Shown here piece after piece: positions 51,973 through 60,282 of a DNA stretch of 64,000 nt. The position numbers and the translations under genes were made by a program. This DNA is from an uncultured Prevotella sp. (lineage in GTDB: Bacteria; Bacteroidota; Bacteroidia; Bacteroidales; Bacteroidaceae). The notes beneath the pieces are model-generated. The model was not told the DNA's origin. It saw nothing but the letters and a program-made list of their open reading frames with translations, and ran no database searches. Each line of letters opens with the position of its first letter. Position 1 is the stretch's first letter. Where the stretch lies: contig CAMVOS010000008.1 of the NCBI GenBank assembly GCA_947169185.1, positions 1-64,000 of the forward strand. Reading direction: 5' to 3'.

Positions 51973-52938
51973 TTAATAGTATTGCATGGTGCAGCAATGC
52001 AGCGAACCGTGCTGGCGGATGACGGCGCGACAGTCGATGCCAACGATTTCGCGGTCGGGGAAGGCTAGTCCGATGGTCTGCATGGCCTCTGCGTCCAGGT
52101 CGGGCTGATTGTAAGTCGGCACCAGGACGGCCCCGTTCACGACCAGATAGTTGGCGTAGGTAGCCGGCAGACGGTCATCGCCATCGAAGATGGGGCGGGG
52201 CAGTGGCAGCTTCAGCAGACGGTAGGGGCGGCCATCAAGCGTTCGCAGCTCATGCAGTTCCTGTTCCATGAGCGCCAGGTCGGGATGGTCGTCGTCGCCA
52301 TCGGTATATAATAAGGTGTCGTCGGGGCAGATGCGCACCAAGGTGTCGATGTGTCCGTCGGTATCGTCGCCAATGAGCGAGCCGTGCTGTAGCCAGACGA
52401 TGCGTTCGGCACCCAGCCACAGCTTCAGCCGGTCTTCTATCTGCTGCTTTGTCAGGGGCTGATTACGATGAGGAGCCATCAGACAACATTCCGTAGTGAA
52501 GATGGTGCCCTTGCCGTCGCTCTCTATTGAACCGCCTTCTAGCACGAAGTCCAAATGGTCTTCGTACTGGCCTCTGACCAGTCCTTGGTCGTAGAGTTGC
52601 TTGTTGATAGCATTGTCTAAAGCCGCCTCAAACTTCTCGCCCCAGCCGTTGAAGCAGAAGTCAAGGAGGTGGAGGGCTGAGTCCTCTTCCACCGTGATGA
52701 AGCCATGGTCGCGGGCCCAAGTATCGTTAGAAGTAAGAGGTAAGAGGTAAGAGGTAAGAGGTGAGAGAACGGATTGTAGGGCTTTTGGCGCAACAATCAA
52801 TAAATCTTCGCGCTTTTGGATCTCACGCGCCATCTCTTTGTAGACAGCCGTAATCTCGGGCAGTATCGGTGCCCAATCTGTATTCTCGTACGGCCACGTC
52901 AGCTGAACACAGCTCTGGTGCTCCCACTCGGCGGGCAT
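51973..52938 (-). CDS. aguA: Agmatine deiminase / peptidyl-arginine deiminase family (in-frame heptamer insertion)
   Basis: MPAEWEHQSCVQLTWPYENTDW; NDTWARDHGFITV; LEGGSIESDGKGTI; GDDTDGHIDTLVR. Start set at 52938 because the -7 box ends at 52965. Confidence 0.9.
   Translation of the reverse strand: MPAEWEHQSCVQLTWPYENTDWAPILPEITAVYKEMAREIQKREDLLIVAPKALQSVLSPLTSYLLPLTSNDTWARDHGFITVEEDSALHLLDFCFNGWGEKFEAALDNAINKQLYDQGLVRGQYEDHLDFVLEGGSIESDGKGTIFTTECCLMAPHRNQPLTKQQIEDRLKLWLGAERIVWLQHGSLIGDDTDGHIDTLVRICPDDTLLYTDGDDDHPDLALMEQELHELRTLDGRPYRLLKLPLPRPIFDGDDRLPATYANYLVVNGAVLVPTYNQPDLDAEAMQTIGLAFPDREIVGIDCRAVIRQHGSLHCCTMQYY
52730..52768. repeat. Heptamer tandem repeat inside aguA
   Basis: gaagtaa gaggtaa gaggtaa gaggtaa gaggtga; encodes LSPLTSYLLPLTS on the minus strand. 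Confidence 0.9.
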
Positions 52939-52964
52939 GCGTCTATTTCGTTCTTTCATGCCTG

Positions 52965-52996
52965 CAAAGGTAGTGTAAATGGAGCAAAAAGCCAAA
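52965..52996 (-). promoter_or_regulatory. Promoter of aguA
   Basis: Minus strand TTTG-N20-TACCTTTG with the same upstream TTATTTGGCTTTTT as aguB. Confidence 0.65.
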
Positions 52997-53060: not shown

Positions 53061-54725
53061 TTAGATGATGGGAATATCCGACATGTCGTCAAGGGGCAGA
53101 TTGAAGAAGAATGACGAGGTGCTCCATGCGCGGGGCGTAGCCTCGTTGATGAGCAGCCAGCGGCTCCATCCCACCAGCTTGTCGAAGGTCGTCAGCAGGT
53201 AGGTATCAGCAAAGGTGCTGCCCCATGTGTCCTTCTTCTCCAACTCAAAGTGGGCGAGGCTGCCGTCGCCGCTGTCATCGCCGCTACCACCCACGTATTT
53301 GTATTTCTCCCTGGTGCCGTCGGTGTAATAAACATCTGCTTTATCCAGGCCTATGGCCTTGCCGTATTCATCTTCAATGTAACTGTATAGTACATAGTTG
53401 CCCTTCACGGCAAGCATTACGCTGTAGTCCACCTGATAGTTGTGGTTGGTCAGGTATTTGGCATAGCGCTGATGGGCAATACAGCCGTTGAATGCCGTCT
53501 TGACGCGATTGTAGAGGTCTTGGTCGAAGACTTCGGGCAGTACTGTGAAGATGCTCTTCATGTATTTTGCCATATCGTATAAAGGCTCACTGTTATATAT
53601 CTTCACGGCATTGTTGGTGCACTCGTCGATGGCAGCGCGCTGCTCTGGCGTGCCATTCTGATAGGTATCCACCAAGCGGTCAGTAAACTCCTTCAGTACA
53701 GGAGCCAAGTCGTCAAGATTCTTGGTCTCAGTCAGAGTCAGGTCATAGTATGCGGGATTTTCTGGATACTGGGGATTGTAGAATGCTGCATCCCAGCTGT
53801 CCACTGTGGCGTCGACGAAGTTGGAGAGTGCCGTCTTGGTATCCTTACCCTCAGCAAAATTGTCGACAAGGCTTCCAAAGGCACCACCGTCACCCCACAT
53901 GATGTAGGTGGAGCTGGCAATATAGTCGGTCACGTCCTTGACATCATACATGAACTCCAGGTTGTTCATCAGACAGAGGTAGAGTACAATGCCATCCACG
54001 CGTACATCGGCACTCCTGACACCCCGAGCGAAACTCTTGGCCGAGAAACACTTGTCTTGTCCATTGACCTGATAACCGTCATCGAAAATCAGTCCGCGGC
54101 GCTGTGGACTGCTGGCTGCTTCAGCCGTATCATCACAGGGCAGATAGCCGCCACCGTGGTCGGCCAGCATGAGGATGTACTTTTTGGCGGGATAGGTCTT
54201 GGTAGCCCAGTTGATGAAGTTGGTCAGCGAGTCGGGGCAGGTGCAGTCGGCATTCGGCTGGCCGTAAGGCTCCATCTCATTGAATTGCTTGTACAGGGGC
54301 TTCTTGGCGTCAAGGGCGAAGCGATAGCTGGCACCGGCCTGAGGATGGCATAGGTAGAAGTAATTGACCGCATCATATTTTTCTAACTTCTCATCGCTTA
54401 CATTCTTAACCTCATAATCTGCCCATTCGACGATAGTATCATAGCTGTAGTATTCATAAACAGTCGGTTTGTACGATGCTTTGTACTGGGCCACGACGTT
54501 TACACGGTCGAAGTTCTTGGCTTGTGCCTGGTAGAAAGTGCGGAAATTCTGTAGGATAGCCGCGTCTACATTGTTGCCACCACAACCATACCAAAGGATG
54601 GTGGCCTCGGCCAGGTCATCCTGTACAGGATTCGGTGTGGGGTTGTCGTCAACTGAGCACGATGTCAGCACCGTCGTTGTCATCATCAGCGTTATGGCCG
54701 CTGTAGCCAATAATAATTTTCGCAT
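53061..54725 (-). CDS. Clostripain-related (C11) cysteine peptidase, lipoprotein
   Basis: Lipobox VLTSC; ILMLADHGGGYLP; ILWYGCGGNNVD. Confidence 0.88.
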   Translation of the reverse strand: MRKLLLATAAITLMMTTTVLTSCSVDDNPTPNPVQDDLAEATILWYGCGGNNVDAAILQNFRTFYQAQAKNFDRVNVVAQYKASYKPTVYEYYSYDTIVEWADYEVKNVSDEKLEKYDAVNYFYLCHPQAGASYRFALDAKKPLYKQFNEMEPYGQPNADCTCPDSLTNFINWATKTYPAKKYILMLADHGGGYLPCDDTAEAASSPQRRGLIFDDGYQVNGQDKCFSAKSFARGVRSADVRVDGIVLYLCLMNNLEFMYDVKDVTDYIASSTYIMWGDGGAFGSLVDNFAEGKDTKTALSNFVDATVDSWDAAFYNPQYPENPAYYDLTLTETKNLDDLAPVLKEFTDRLVDTYQNGTPEQRAAIDECTNNAVKIYNSEPLYDMAKYMKSIFTVLPEVFDQDLYNRVKTAFNGCIAHQRYAKYLTNHNYQVDYSVMLAVKGNYVLYSYIEDEYGKAIGLDKADVYYTDGTREKYKYVGGSGDDSGDGSLAHFELEKKDTWGSTFADTYLLTTFDKLVGWSRWLLINEATPRAWSTSSFFFNLPLDDMSDIPII

Positions 54726-54763: not shown

Positions 54764-56677
54764 TTACCAAATTCTTACGCGGTCCTTTGGTGCACGATAG
54801 AGCTTGTCGCCGGCTTTCACGCCAAAGAGGTCGTACCAGGCATCAGTATTTGTGACCGTACCGTTGATGCGCTCTCTTGGCAATGAATGACCGTCTTTTA
54901 AATTAGCTGTTTCTATGCCTTCACCGGTGGTACGCAGGAGGGCATACTTAGCTGTATACTTGGATTGCCAGAGTTTTGCAAGTGCCAAGAAGTAGCGTTG
55001 ACGCTGGAGGTCGAACTGCTCGCCTTTGAAGCCGCTCTCGGTAAGATGACGCACATAAGTGTCGTAGGCCAGCAAGACGCCGCCCAGGTCGGCAATATTC
55101 TCGGCAACGGTATAAGCACCATCATTCTTAACGCCAGGTAATGCCCAAGGCATCACCTCAAAGTTGCTGTAGCAGTCGATAAGCTGCTGTGCACGATTCT
55201 GGAACTCTTGACGGTCGGCATCGCTGGCCCAGATGTCTTCTCGGTCGCCTATCTTGTTGAATTGTGCACCCTCGGTGTCGAATCCGTGGGTGATTTCGTG
55301 TCCGAATACCATTATGGTAGCATAGTTATGGGCGTCGTTCTGCTGCGGATTATAGAGGGGGGCCATCATCCAGGCAGGGAAGATGTTCATGGCATTAAGG
55401 TTCGCGGTATAGAAAGCGTTCGTGACAGTAAGGTCATAGCTGGTTATGAGTGAATGAAAACTTGCTCTTGGGGTCTCCATGCCTGCAATTTTCCTACATA
55501 AGGCCAGATTGGTGCGGCGCAGAGCCATGACGTCGTCGAGAAGTGTCTTCTCGTTGCTGATGTCAGCAAATCCTTCAGAGAACCATTCGTCAGGACTGCC
55601 GATGTTGAATGTCATGGCGTTGAGTTTCTCGATGGCCGATTGCTTAGAGGCTTCGCTCATCCATTCGTTGGCAGCAATGCGCTGACGGAAGGTCTGGCGC
55701 AACTGAGAGCAATAGTCCATTGTGCGTTGCTTCATTTCGGGCGTGATGTATGCATTGGTGAAAATGTACGACTTCTCGTACTTTAGCAAGCTATTCGCAC
55801 AGTTCTGAACCATCTGCATACGTGTCGCCGGACTAACCAATGCCATGTCTCTGGCAACTCCCGTAGCCATGACTTGTTTCAACTGGTCAAGATTAGATTG
55901 TAAACCAAGCATCCCTGCCAAGACATAATCCATACTTTCTGGTTTAATCGTGGCATCCGCGTCAATACTGTAGGCATCGTCGAGATTGAAGCCGAGCTCG
56001 GTAAAGATGGCAGTCAGCATCGGCCACTTGTCGTGGTCGTATGCGCGACGGGAACCAGCACCCCTTAGAGGATGAACGCAAGCCTGCAAGTCAGGATTGC
56101 TGAGCAATTGCCACTTCATGCTGTTCTTGTCAATCGTGTTGCTGATAGGAGCATAGTCACTACTATTCGGAAAAAACGATACGCCGATATGTCCGTTTTT
56201 TGAAAACAACGCAGCACCGAATGTCGTTGCATAGCCTTCGTTGATCAGTTCTCCCCAAAGTTTCCAAGCTTCTTCACAAGTTTTTACAGCCTCAATTCTC
56301 GCCAAGGCGGCGTTAATCTTGGTCATGATTTCGGCGGAGTCAGCTTTAGCAGCATCTGCCAACAGCTTTTCATAGTTCGGGAAGGGAAGTGCAGACATAC
56401 GCTCTCTTATCATGTCCGGAATCTCTTGGGCCATGATGCTCTTAAACGTGAACGATGACTCGTCAACCTCTGTGCTGTTCCAGTAACCGCCGTTACAATA
56501 CATAAAGAAGTCGTCACCTGGACGTATGCTTGTGTCCTTGTCGGTTTCGGGGACGTTCCACTGTCCATTATCCACTACTGGTGCGGGGTTGTCCTCAATG
56601 CTGATACACGATGTCAACACAGTCAGGTTCATGGCGCAGCAAAAGACGGCTGCGAGTACAGTCAGAATCTTCTTCAT
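54764..56677 (-). CDS. M13 family (neprilysin-like) metallopeptidase, lipoprotein
   Basis: VFGHEITHGFDTEGAQFN, ENIADLGGVLLAYD; lipobox VLTSC. Confidence 0.95.
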   Translation of the reverse strand: MKKILTVLAAVFCCAMNLTVLTSCISIEDNPAPVVDNGQWNVPETDKDTSIRPGDDFFMYCNGGYWNSTEVDESSFTFKSIMAQEIPDMIRERMSALPFPNYEKLLADAAKADSAEIMTKINAALARIEAVKTCEEAWKLWGELINEGYATTFGAALFSKNGHIGVSFFPNSSDYAPISNTIDKNSMKWQLLSNPDLQACVHPLRGAGSRRAYDHDKWPMLTAIFTELGFNLDDAYSIDADATIKPESMDYVLAGMLGLQSNLDQLKQVMATGVARDMALVSPATRMQMVQNCANSLLKYEKSYIFTNAYITPEMKQRTMDYCSQLRQTFRQRIAANEWMSEASKQSAIEKLNAMTFNIGSPDEWFSEGFADISNEKTLLDDVMALRRTNLALCRKIAGMETPRASFHSLITSYDLTVTNAFYTANLNAMNIFPAWMMAPLYNPQQNDAHNYATIMVFGHEITHGFDTEGAQFNKIGDREDIWASDADRQEFQNRAQQLIDCYSNFEVMPWALPGVKNDGAYTVAENIADLGGVLLAYDTYVRHLTESGFKGEQFDLQRQRYFLALAKLWQSKYTAKYALLRTTGEGIETANLKDGHSLPRERINGTVTNTDAWYDLFGVKAGDKLYRAPKDRVRIW

Positions 56678-56711: not shown

Positions 56712-57623
56712 TTATTTCTTGCTTTTCTTTGATTTCTTCATGTATTTATGGTATGCCTCCGCTAGTTGTTGGCGACGCTCGGGAGTGACAGTAATCATGC
56801 GCATGTTGGTTCCGTCCTGCGGCTTGATGCCTTCCTTGTTGAAGAAGAAGCTGTAGACCATGTCGCCATGAATGTCGTCATAGGTCTTGCCGTCCTCGCC
56901 CAGGAACAAGGTAGGCGCATCATCATCACCATCTGTCTTTCCCATCCATCCCAACAAGGGTCTTTCTACGTTCCAGCCGTCCTTGGCTATCATGACGTAG
57001 TTCTTGCCGTCCAAGGTCACCTCGATGAGCTTGTCGCCGAACGATTCCTTGTACTGGTTAACGATGTGTTCGTATAATATGGATGTCGTGACATCCGTAT
57101 GCTCTATGCCGGACATCTTGTTCTTGGTCACCCTGTCGCGGATATCCGTCATATACATCAGCGCCTTCGCCATATTTTCCTTTATCATGCTGTACAGCAT
57201 ACCCATAAAGGCTACAGAACACAAGTATTCGTCGCTAATCTCCACACCAACTTTATAGGCATGGAAGTATTCGTCGATGTAGAACAGGGCCTTGTCCAGG
57301 TCCTTCTTGTCAGAAGCTAACGTCATCAGCATCGTTAAGGCCTCGCGAAGCACGGAATCAGGGACCTCCTTGTTATAGTCGGTGGCCTGATGATAGATAC
57401 GTTCAAAGTATTTCTCAGACTGCGACTGGTTATACATGCCGCTGTCCTTATCGAGCAGGAAGTGGCCTGCATCAAGCTGGGCCTTCCAGTCCTTGGGGTT
57501 GTCGTCGGCAGCCTTTGTCAGACGGAAGAATTTCTGTGCCTTAGATTCGGGCTCTTCCGTTTGGGCATTCACATTCAGTGCAGCGATGCAGATAATGGCT
57601 GCTAACACAATAAACTTTCTCAT
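56712..57623 (-). CDS. Hypothetical exported protein
   Basis: 303 aa with signal peptide MRKFIVLAAIICIAALNVNA; some TPR-like content. Confidence 0.65.
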   Translation of the reverse strand: MRKFIVLAAIICIAALNVNAQTEEPESKAQKFFRLTKAADDNPKDWKAQLDAGHFLLDKDSGMYNQSQSEKYFERIYHQATDYNKEVPDSVLREALTMLMTLASDKKDLDKALFYIDEYFHAYKVGVEISDEYLCSVAFMGMLYSMIKENMAKALMYMTDIRDRVTKNKMSGIEHTDVTTSILYEHIVNQYKESFGDKLIEVTLDGKNYVMIAKDGWNVERPLLGWMGKTDGDDDAPTLFLGEDGKTYDDIHGDMVYSFFFNKEGIKPQDGTNMRMITVTPERRQQLAEAYHKYMKKSKKSKK

Positions 57624-57675: not shown

Positions 57676-58173
57676 TTACTTGGCATATTTGGCCTGATAT
57701 TCTTGCTCCAGCTGTGCTTTTAAAGCATTTGTCTTGCTGTTTGCACGTATCATTGTAATATTGCTAAGGCCTCTGGACCATACAAATTCCTCGTAGTCAT
57801 GGACTGTGACGAAACCTTCGATTTTAACTTCTGGGAATGTACATATTAACTGCAATTTGTCATAGGTAAAAGAACCATTGTTCTCTACTTTCTGAATGTT
57901 AGTGATGTCCTTGGTATTCAAAGTAGTACCATTAATTATGACTTGACTTAAAAAGCTTGAAAAACTTACGGTGTATATAACACAGTTAACAGAATTGCCA
58001 TTTAGAGTATAGAATTCAAACCGACCACCGTTATAATCACTCATCCATTCGCCATTGATGGTAAATTGCTTGTTGTTGCCACCATCATCACCATCACTGC
58101 CACAAGAAACGAGAGCTGTTGCCATTACACATCCGCACATCAGTACGAACATTGTCTTGAAAAATGTCTTCAT
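57676..58173 (-). CDS. Hypothetical lipoprotein
   Basis: MKTFFKTMFVLMCGCVMATALVSCGSDGDDGG lipobox. Confidence 0.7.
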   Translation of the reverse strand: MKTFFKTMFVLMCGCVMATALVSCGSDGDDGGNNKQFTINGEWMSDYNGGRFEFYTLNGNSVNCVIYTVSFSSFLSQVIINGTTLNTKDITNIQKVENNGSFTYDKLQLICTFPEVKIEGFVTVHDYEEFVWSRGLSNITMIRANSKTNALKAQLEQEYQAKYAK

Positions 58174-58214: not shown

Positions 58215-58397
58215 TTATACGATTCCTGCTTTCCTCATTTTCTGACGCATCTCCTCGTTCTGCCGGATGAAGCGCTCGATGAAGACGTTTTGTTCGCCGA
58301 TACGCCAACGCTGATAAATAATGATAGCTATCAGCGCCAGCACCACAACAATCATGGTGGCGGCGAGGGCTACTGCGAAAACAAATGTTATATCCAT
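58215..58397 (-). CDS. Small single-TM protein
   Basis: MDITFVFAVALAATMIVVVLALIAIIIYQRWRIGEQNVFIERFIRQNEEMRQKMRKAGIV; start 58397, because the upstream part of the track ORF lies in the repeat array. Confidence 0.65.
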   Translation of the reverse strand: MDITFVFAVALAATMIVVVLALIAIIIYQRWRIGEQNVFIERFIRQNEEMRQKMRKAGIV

Positions 58398-58428
58398 ACG
58401 ATTGTTTGTTTGAATCGTTTGCAAAATT

Positions 58429-58522
58429 AGTCTGTTTGCTGGAAACAATAGTCTCATGGTAGGAAAAAAGAGTCTCATTTCGTGAAAAACCGCATTCCGA
58501 TAGTCTCAAATCGAGAAAAAAG
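58429..58522. promoter_or_regulatory. Four phased direct repeats (AGTCTCA-N6-GAAAAA), putative operator array
   Basis: Copies begin at 58429 (degenerate), 58450, 58471 and 58502; spacing 21, 21, 31 bp. Confidence 0.8.
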
Positions 58523-58550
58523 CAAGCCTGACATGAGACTGCCAGGCTTG
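58523..58550 (-). terminator. Terminator hairpin of the TPR-AraC regulator
   Basis: CAAGCCTG...CAGGCTTG with the minus-strand exit into TTTTTT. Confidence 0.7.
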
Positions 58551-58575: not shown

Positions 58576-60282
58576 CTATTTGTTGGCCACTTGTCGGTAA
58601 TCAGATGGCGACATGCCATAGGTATCGCTGAAAACGCGGAAGAAGGAACTGCGCGAGAAACCAGAGAGTTCAGCGATAAGCGTCACAGAGTTGGTTGTCG
58701 TTGACAGCAAATGTGCAGCATAGCGCAGCCTGTACTCGTTTAGGAAACTATTGACGCTCTTGCCATTGGTGCAGGCGCTGATGGCATCGGTGATGTAGTG
58801 CTCGTTGGTGCCAAGCAGTTGGGCTAGACGGCTGCGGTCGAGTTCCGAGTCGGTATAAATATGTTCTGGGGACTCCATGAACTCGCAGATGTGGCGGAAG
58901 AGCTGTTGTTCGGTAGTGAGCTGTTCCTCGGGTTCGGCCTTCAACTGCTCAATGGCCTGTTGCTGCTCTCGCTCGCGCTGTTTTATATCGTCCAGAAGTC
59001 GGCGGTTCTTCTCAAGGAGCACATTATTATATATATAGGAGCGCCAAAGCAGGTAGGCAATGAGCAGACAAATAAGGATGGCGGCAATGGCGATAACGCG
59101 ATAGACGGTAGTCTGGAACTCCGACTCCTCTAGTGCCAGTTCTTTTTTGTGTGTCTGGTAAATAACTGCCAGTTCGCTGGCATCGTTCTTCTTCTGCCAG
59201 ACAAGGGCGGAGTCGATGGCTGCGTTGATGCTGTCGGCAAGGACTAGTGCATCGACGTTACGACTAGCCTTACGGTAGGCTGAATAGCGTGGAGAAAGGC
59301 GTTCGGCAATGTTGTCGAAGGTCATCTGTGCACCATCGGTAGCCAGATAGGTGCTGTCAATCTGTTCGTACCAGTAAGCGGCCTCGTTGTAACGACCTAC
59401 CGCCATCAGGTATTCGGCGGCCTCGGAGTAGGCCCTCGGCTCGAAAAGACGGCTGCGGGGAACGGCAGCGTATGTGGTGGCAGCCTGGGCGGTTTGTCCC
59501 GATTCTTGTAGGTATAGTGCCCGCGTGAGGGCAATATGGCCTTTCCATTCCTCTATCAGTAGTGAGTCATCATGCTCTTGCTCAGCGAGGGCTATCCCCT
59601 CTGCGCAGCGGTCATTCCATGCCAACGCCCCTTCGAGGTCTCCTATTTCGTGGTGAATTGTGGATATCTTCATACAGATCCAAGCCAACCCCCATCCTTT
59701 TAGGCGCTCATTATTGACGTACTGTAGTTCTGCTTCGTAGGCTTTCTGGCCCGTAAGCTGCGCCTCGTCGAACTGTTGCAACTGTATTTGGCAGTCTGCC
59801 ATCAGCATCAGCAAGGCTGCTTCAGCCTTTTTAGGAAATGCCTTGTTGTCCTTAGCTTGAGGCAATAACTCAGTAATAACGCTCAGTGCACCTTCGGTAT
59901 CGCCTCGTCTGAAGCGCAGATATGCCCATCGGTAGCCTGCGTCGGTATAGCTGTCCCAGTCTTGCGATGGTTTGGGGGCATAGCCCTTATAGGCCTTCTT
60001 ATAGAAATGCTCTGCAATCCGCATCTGCCAGCCTTGGTCGTAGGCCAGTCCTCGCAGATGGTCGGCTTTCATTGTACATATAATCTGTGATTGCTCCATA
60101 CTGTCGATGATAGCCAATGTCCGCCTTAGGTCTTTTGCTTTGCGTGCTTCGTTATACTGCTGCCACGCAACATTTGCCTTTGCCTCGTTCATTGTGTCGT
60201 TGCGATTTGTGCAACCCACAATGGTCAGCATGGCGCAGACTATCCAGATAACAATATATTGGAGACTTCTCATTCGTGTCAT
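58576..60282 (-). CDS. TPR / transmembrane / AraC-type HTH transcriptional regulator
   Basis: N-terminal lipoprotein-like signal and TPRs, TM helix VIAIAAILICLLIAYLLW, coiled coil, C-terminal AraC HTH (LSGFSRSSFFRVFSDTYGMSPSDYRQ). Confidence 0.92.
   Translation of the reverse strand: MTRMRSLQYIVIWIVCAMLTIVGCTNRNDTMNEAKANVAWQQYNEARKAKDLRRTLAIIDSMEQSQIICTMKADHLRGLAYDQGWQMRIAEHFYKKAYKGYAPKPSQDWDSYTDAGYRWAYLRFRRGDTEGALSVITELLPQAKDNKAFPKKAEAALLMLMADCQIQLQQFDEAQLTGQKAYEAELQYVNNERLKGWGLAWICMKISTIHHEIGDLEGALAWNDRCAEGIALAEQEHDDSLLIEEWKGHIALTRALYLQESGQTAQAATTYAAVPRSRLFEPRAYSEAAEYLMAVGRYNEAAYWYEQIDSTYLATDGAQMTFDNIAERLSPRYSAYRKASRNVDALVLADSINAAIDSALVWQKKNDASELAVIYQTHKKELALEESEFQTTVYRVIAIAAILICLLIAYLLWRSYIYNNVLLEKNRRLLDDIKQREREQQQAIEQLKAEPEEQLTTEQQLFRHICEFMESPEHIYTDSELDRSRLAQLLGTNEHYITDAISACTNGKSVNSFLNEYRLRYAAHLLSTTTNSVTLIAELSGFSRSSFFRVFSDTYGMSPSDYRQVANK

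Follow-up and report, generated by a model that had tools for sequence, protein, structure and literature searches.

What is the array of direct repeats at positions 58429-58522 for, and which protein reads it? The array lies in a 64,000-nucleotide stretch of DNA from an uncultured Prevotella sp. (the window), between the gene for a TPR-AraC regulator and a run of genes that includes two peptidases. In the rumen, Prevotella are responsible for a large share of the proteolysis through which dietary nitrogen is lost as ammonia, and in our literature search no regulator or operator was found described for their secreted peptidases. The reading we favor, with a probability of roughly 80%, is that the transmembrane TPR-AraC regulator encoded next to the array uses it as an operator for activating the peptidase operon.

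The minus strand carries the regulator gene, the array, and the target genes alike, and on it the repeated motif reads TTTTTC-N6-TGAGACT (AGTCTCA-N6-GAAAAA on the plus strand). Three copies are exact: distal copy 1 (58502..58520, TTTTTCTCGATTTGAGACT) and copies 2 (58471..58489, TTTTTCACGAAATGAGACT) and 3 (58450..58468, TTTTTCCTACCATGAGACT), the first and second halves of a conserved dimer spaced at 21 bp. The degenerate copy 4 (58429..58447, TGTTTCCAGCAAACAGACT) has three mismatches, overlaps the -33 region (TTG), and abuts the -7 box. In this order the start-to-start distances are 31, 21, and 21 bp, or about 3, 2, and 2 helical turns. The initial annotation described four phased copies; its coordinates and spacings hold, but only three of the copies are exact, the one at 58429 being degenerate. 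Its placement of the array, 3' of the TPR-AraC gene and 5' of a minus-strand gene run that begins with a small membrane protein, was confirmed. A distal copy at 31/32 bp is also present in four related loci (L034, L040, L042, L044). In the relatives the TTGTTTC half of copy 4 is better conserved than the AGACT half, and this copy belongs partly to the operator and partly to the core promoter.

The regulator gene is followed by an intrinsic terminator (58523..58550, minus strand) with an 11-bp stem, which insulates the operator-driven operon. A stem consensus is also visible upstream of the operators in relatives, where a loose stem test was positive in 54 of 73 cases vs 223 of 600 controls. 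At 58520-58523 a T-run is common to the terminator and the distal operator copy, and binding at that copy could affect termination of the regulator gene, or the reverse.

When the 178-bp intergenic region was shuffled with dinucleotide composition retained, none of 1500 shuffles contained three 19-mers at least 74% alike, and a chance origin of the array is excluded. Helical phasing and repetition alone would also fit a structural, recombination, or RNA element, such as an invertible promoter, an attachment site, a riboswitch, or a REP-like repeat. However, the repeats are direct, not inverted, the array is always oriented to the promoter and the gene start, and an Rfam search matched no RNA element; since the array is upstream of the promoter, it lies outside the transcript. 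We regard an element of this kind as hardly credible. Site-specific inversion is ruled out by the direct repeats, all of them oriented to the promoter.

Next to the repeats stands a promoter with a -7 box (58422..58429, minus strand, TAATTTTG) of the Bacteroidales form TAnnTTTG, 22 bp after the dimer. This geometry is conserved: among 74 such operators (consensus TTTTTCcCGTTTTGAGACTCTTTTTTCCTACCGTGgGACTgTTGTTTCCTGAAaAcagaCTAaTTTTGCAGaCGAAA), TAnnTTTG is found exactly 22 bp past the dimer in 72, and the commonest distance to the start codon is 68 bp. The 21-bp-spaced dimer is present in all 24 regulator loci from other Prevotella, mostly rumen Prevotella and close relatives, that were retrieved by a protein similarity search. 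When same-strand half-site pairs 15-80 bp apart were collected from the 24 loci with no spacing imposed, 38 of the 46 pairs were exactly 21 bp apart, so the spacing is not due to chance; the remaining 8 were at 31/32 bp or at the sums 52/53.

The overlap of the last repeat with the core promoter could also indicate a repressor, which would occupy the repeats reaching the -33 and -7 elements and, until released by a signal, keep RNA polymerase blocked. Against this, the strong copies are direct repeats located upstream of -33 at an invariant spacing, and conservation is lowest in the copy that overlaps the promoter. Direct repeats upstream of -33 with fixed spacing are the usual arrangement for AraC-type activators. 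We consider repression unlikely and the array probably a site of activation.

As a check, the initial annotation had proposed searching the genome for the motif. In the assembly to which the window belongs (2.64 Mb, 75% complete) the only exact matches are the three copies of the array, and one further site has one mismatch. At two mismatches the single-copy motif gave 57 matches vs 86 for a reversed control, which is background level, and hence no regulon can be claimed in this genome from the single-copy motif; the search yielded one operator and one target operon. A search of 399 genomes of the genus for the dimer pattern gave matches in 23, whereas the reversed control pattern matched in none of the 399; in the wider family the dimer is rare (at 3 mismatches, 4 of 251 genomes). 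Of the 27 genomes with a close regulator, 17 also have the operator, vs 6 of the 372 others (Fisher p = 2e-18). Ten regulator genomes have no operator at 2 mismatches, and 6 of the 23 operator genomes give no regulator match at E <= 1e-90; many of these discordant genomes, though not all, can be put down to divergent paralogues and incomplete assemblies. In several genomes there are at least four operators, most of them grouped near the regulator. At five loci (L032, L035, L039-L041) the operator precedes the small membrane protein and the regulator together, which implies autoregulation there; this arrangement is absent in the window.

The six operator genomes that have no close regulator match, together with the further AraC proteins encoded in the genome, could mean that the array is the operator of another DNA-binding protein and that the TPR-AraC gene is merely adjacent. 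We find this quite improbable, for the dimer is present at every one of the 24 regulator loci, the operator sequence changes largely with the HTH type where sensor and HTH domains have been exchanged, and in several of the genomes with no close match a relative carrying the other sensor type (sensor B) lies beside the operator.

The exchange also indicates which domain recognizes the repeats. The regulators have sensors of two types, A and B, about 20% identical to each other, and HTH domains of two types (1 and 2), which are 66-92% identical within a type and 45-56% identical across types. All four combinations of sensor and HTH occur, a natural domain swap. Whichever sensor is present, operators beside HTH type 1 are mostly TGRGAC-T and those beside HTH type 2 mostly TGAAAC-A or TGAGAC-A. 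At the protein-retrieved loci, ACT is found in the operators of 18 of 18 type-1 loci vs 0 of 5 type-2 loci (p = 3e-5), the type-2 loci not being independent; the five may stem from few exchange events. Exceptions are L148 (HTH 2), which has ACT sites, L035 (HTH 1), where two operators are ACA and one is ACT, and the type-2 loci L145, L147, L151, and L154, with ACG operators. The TTTTTC half is near constant across HTH types, as expected if the type-variable second HTH reads the TGAGACT half, and we infer that this second HTH, whose recognition helix differs by type, does so. This covariation of HTH and operator argues strongly, if by inference, for the AraC domain as the part of the regulator that reads the array. 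Beside the same operators there is also a second lineage of TPR-AraC proteins, whose HTH domains are of the same types but whose sensor is unrelated (L033:4043-5752, L035:5871-7640, L162:4709-6436, and L145:11018-12715), so that a single regulon may answer to two sensors.

In the window the predicted reader is the 568-aa TPR-AraC regulator (58576..60282, minus strand). It comprises a lipobox cysteine, Cys24 (IVGC), which is invariant in 32 homologues, a TPR solenoid (residues 29-338), a long helix (342-449) that includes a transmembrane segment at about 392-414 by hydropathy, and an AraC HTH (457-567). Pfam matched HTH_18 (2.6e-13, above cut-off) and HTH_AraC (6.3e-7), and matched no histidine kinase or receiver domain in this protein. 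The AF2 model (mean pLDDT 86) shows the TPR domain, the long helix, and a helical C-terminal AraC domain in one chain. The PDB structures matched by the model are generic TPR proteins, including Rap, NprR, and MalT, with 11-16% identity. Sensing of peptides in the periplasm by the regulator is plausible.

The array precedes a minus-strand run with intergenic gaps of 34-52 bp. Its first gene encodes a 60-aa single-pass membrane protein with a cytoplasmic helical tail (58215..58397), followed by a 165-aa lipoprotein (57676..58173) and a 303-aa exported protein (56712..57623), both of no known family, a lipoprotein M13 metallopeptidase (54764..56677; Pfam M13, 2.8e-41), and a lipoprotein C11 peptidase of the clostripain family (53061..54725; Pfam C11, 3.1e-22). 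Proteins similar-looking to the 303-aa protein sit in operator-driven operons of the relatives. Past the C11 gene, after a 101-bp gap, an ORF (51973-52995, minus strand) appears to resemble an agmatine deiminase/PAD-type protein.

Of the 74 operators, 71 precede either the small membrane protein (23) or a signal-peptide-like start (48). By Pfam, about 37 of the 114 non-redundant proteins of operator-driven runs are peptidases, from families M13 (10), C11 (10), S41 (6), C10 (4), S8 (3), M4 (2), and S28/S37 (2); for 71 flanking proteins, the best 25 families listed include one M19 peptidase. The initial annotation had proposed that the array is the regulator's operator and controls a secreted-peptidase regulon. 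Across the relatives, the 24 loci, the co-occurrence, the tracking of HTH type, and the seven exported-peptidase families argue for this proposal, whereas in the window's own genome, with its one operator, the "regulon" is reduced to one operon.

The signal peptide MKK..MTLAAVLCCAMT recurs in many of the target proteins, although their families are unrelated. The AAVLCC leaders have identical codons (GCAGCCGTCCTTTGCTGC) in 24 of 30 cases, each expected at 0.1% from local codon use. In the window the shared leader is that of the M13 gene (lipoprotein leader segment, 56628-56653), and near-identical leader DNA is found in L033, L041, L043, L144, L156-L159, and others. A degenerate leader pattern was present in 6 of 8 genomes that have the operator vs 0 of 4 that lack it. 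Some of the targets are related by descent, which accounts for part of the identity; since the payload families differ, copying of the leader segment is likely.

The small membrane protein lies 39-109 bp after an operator in 22 of 30 copies. In its AF2 model residues 3-57 form a single helix, with the tail on the arginine-rich side of the transmembrane segment, and no periplasmic sensory domain is present. Among 27 aligned homologues Tyr28, Trp31, Arg32, and Asn37 are invariant. The tail reads RIGDQNVFIERF in HTH-type-1 loci and RI[NSC]D[NS]N..L in HTH-type-2 loci, in both sensor backgrounds; linkage could explain this agreement, as the genes for the HTH and the small membrane protein are often adjacent, with the operator. 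A Y-x2-W-R-x4-N pattern after the membrane helix is common to the small protein and to residues 410-419 of the regulator. We make no claim of homology between the two: their profiles align exactly at this pattern, but the match is not significant (E = 0.058, probability 1%). At type-2 loci the frame of the small protein has no stop of its own and extends through a further exported sequence of signal-peptide-like type, for a total of 182-183 aa (L145:12921-13469, L151:16742-17290, L154:6807-7358). The small membrane protein is a conserved and probably co-regulated candidate partner, and its role, as a best guess, is feedback or co-sensing.

These observations suggest the following mechanism. 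The lipid-anchored periplasmic TPR domain would sense an extracytoplasmic signal, for which our guess is peptides from protein breakdown, and the single long helix that crosses the membrane would relay the signal to the AraC domain in the cytoplasm. On the 21-bp-spaced direct repeats, two such domains would then sit side by side on one face of the DNA, each contacting the TGAGACT half through its C-terminal HTH, and would bring RNA polymerase to the -33/-7 promoter, with which the last repeat overlaps. The result would be to switch on the 60-aa membrane protein, the lipoproteins, and the secreted M13 and C11 peptidases. The co-regulated membrane protein, the sensor/HTH exchange, and the identical-codon signal-peptide cassette on unrelated enzymes go beyond the initial annotation. 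Tentatively, they might be parts of a plug-in module, in which operator-promoter-signal-peptide DNA is copied before unrelated peptidase genes, the block of HTH, operator, and small protein is exchanged between TPR sensors, and the small protein pairs with the signaling helix as a feedback partner; we hold this extended scheme to be possible but doubtful. For Prevotella secreted peptidases the analysis yields an operator, a promoter geometry, a regulator, a candidate membrane partner, and a predicted target list, and with the natural domain-swap series specificity can be tested directly for an entire class of membrane regulators of the TPR-AraC kind.

The arrangement can be compared with several known systems. 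E. coli araI1-araI2 is a direct-repeat operator of AraC/XylS-family activators. As in that family, the regulator has an HTH_18 domain, the two direct repeats are about two helical turns apart, and the proximal site reaches the -33/-35 region; a direct-repeat operator with a spacing of about 21 bp was found beside the target promoter. Unlike at araI1-araI2, a third copy is present distally, at 31 bp, in some loci here, and unlike AraC, which has a cytoplasmic sugar-binding domain, the predicted sensor is a lipid-anchored periplasmic TPR solenoid with a membrane helix. Rap, NprR, and MalT, which are cytoplasmic, use a TPR solenoid as ligand sensor. The regulator would resemble them in this respect, a likeness drawn from model similarity among many TPR proteins at 11-16% identity, but its TPR domain is predicted to be periplasmic.

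The hybrid two-component systems of Bacteroides (PMC3404733) likewise combine a periplasmic sensor, a membrane helix, and an AraC-type output in one chain and control neighboring genes for extracellular nutrient breakdown. The TPR-AraC regulator differs from them in having no kinase or receiver domains, and its predicted targets are peptidases, not glycan enzymes, together with a co-regulated small membrane protein. In ToxR/ToxS and VtrA/VtrC (PMC9214523), as here, a membrane-spanning transcription factor and a separate small membrane protein are encoded side by side. The output is of the AraC rather than the ToxR type, and the partner, unlike ToxS and VtrC, has a cytoplasmic helix, almost no periplasmic part, and no lipocalin domain. 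The genes for the small membrane protein and the regulator lie near each other with a shared operator, and the two proteins may act jointly, as the partners in a co-component system would.
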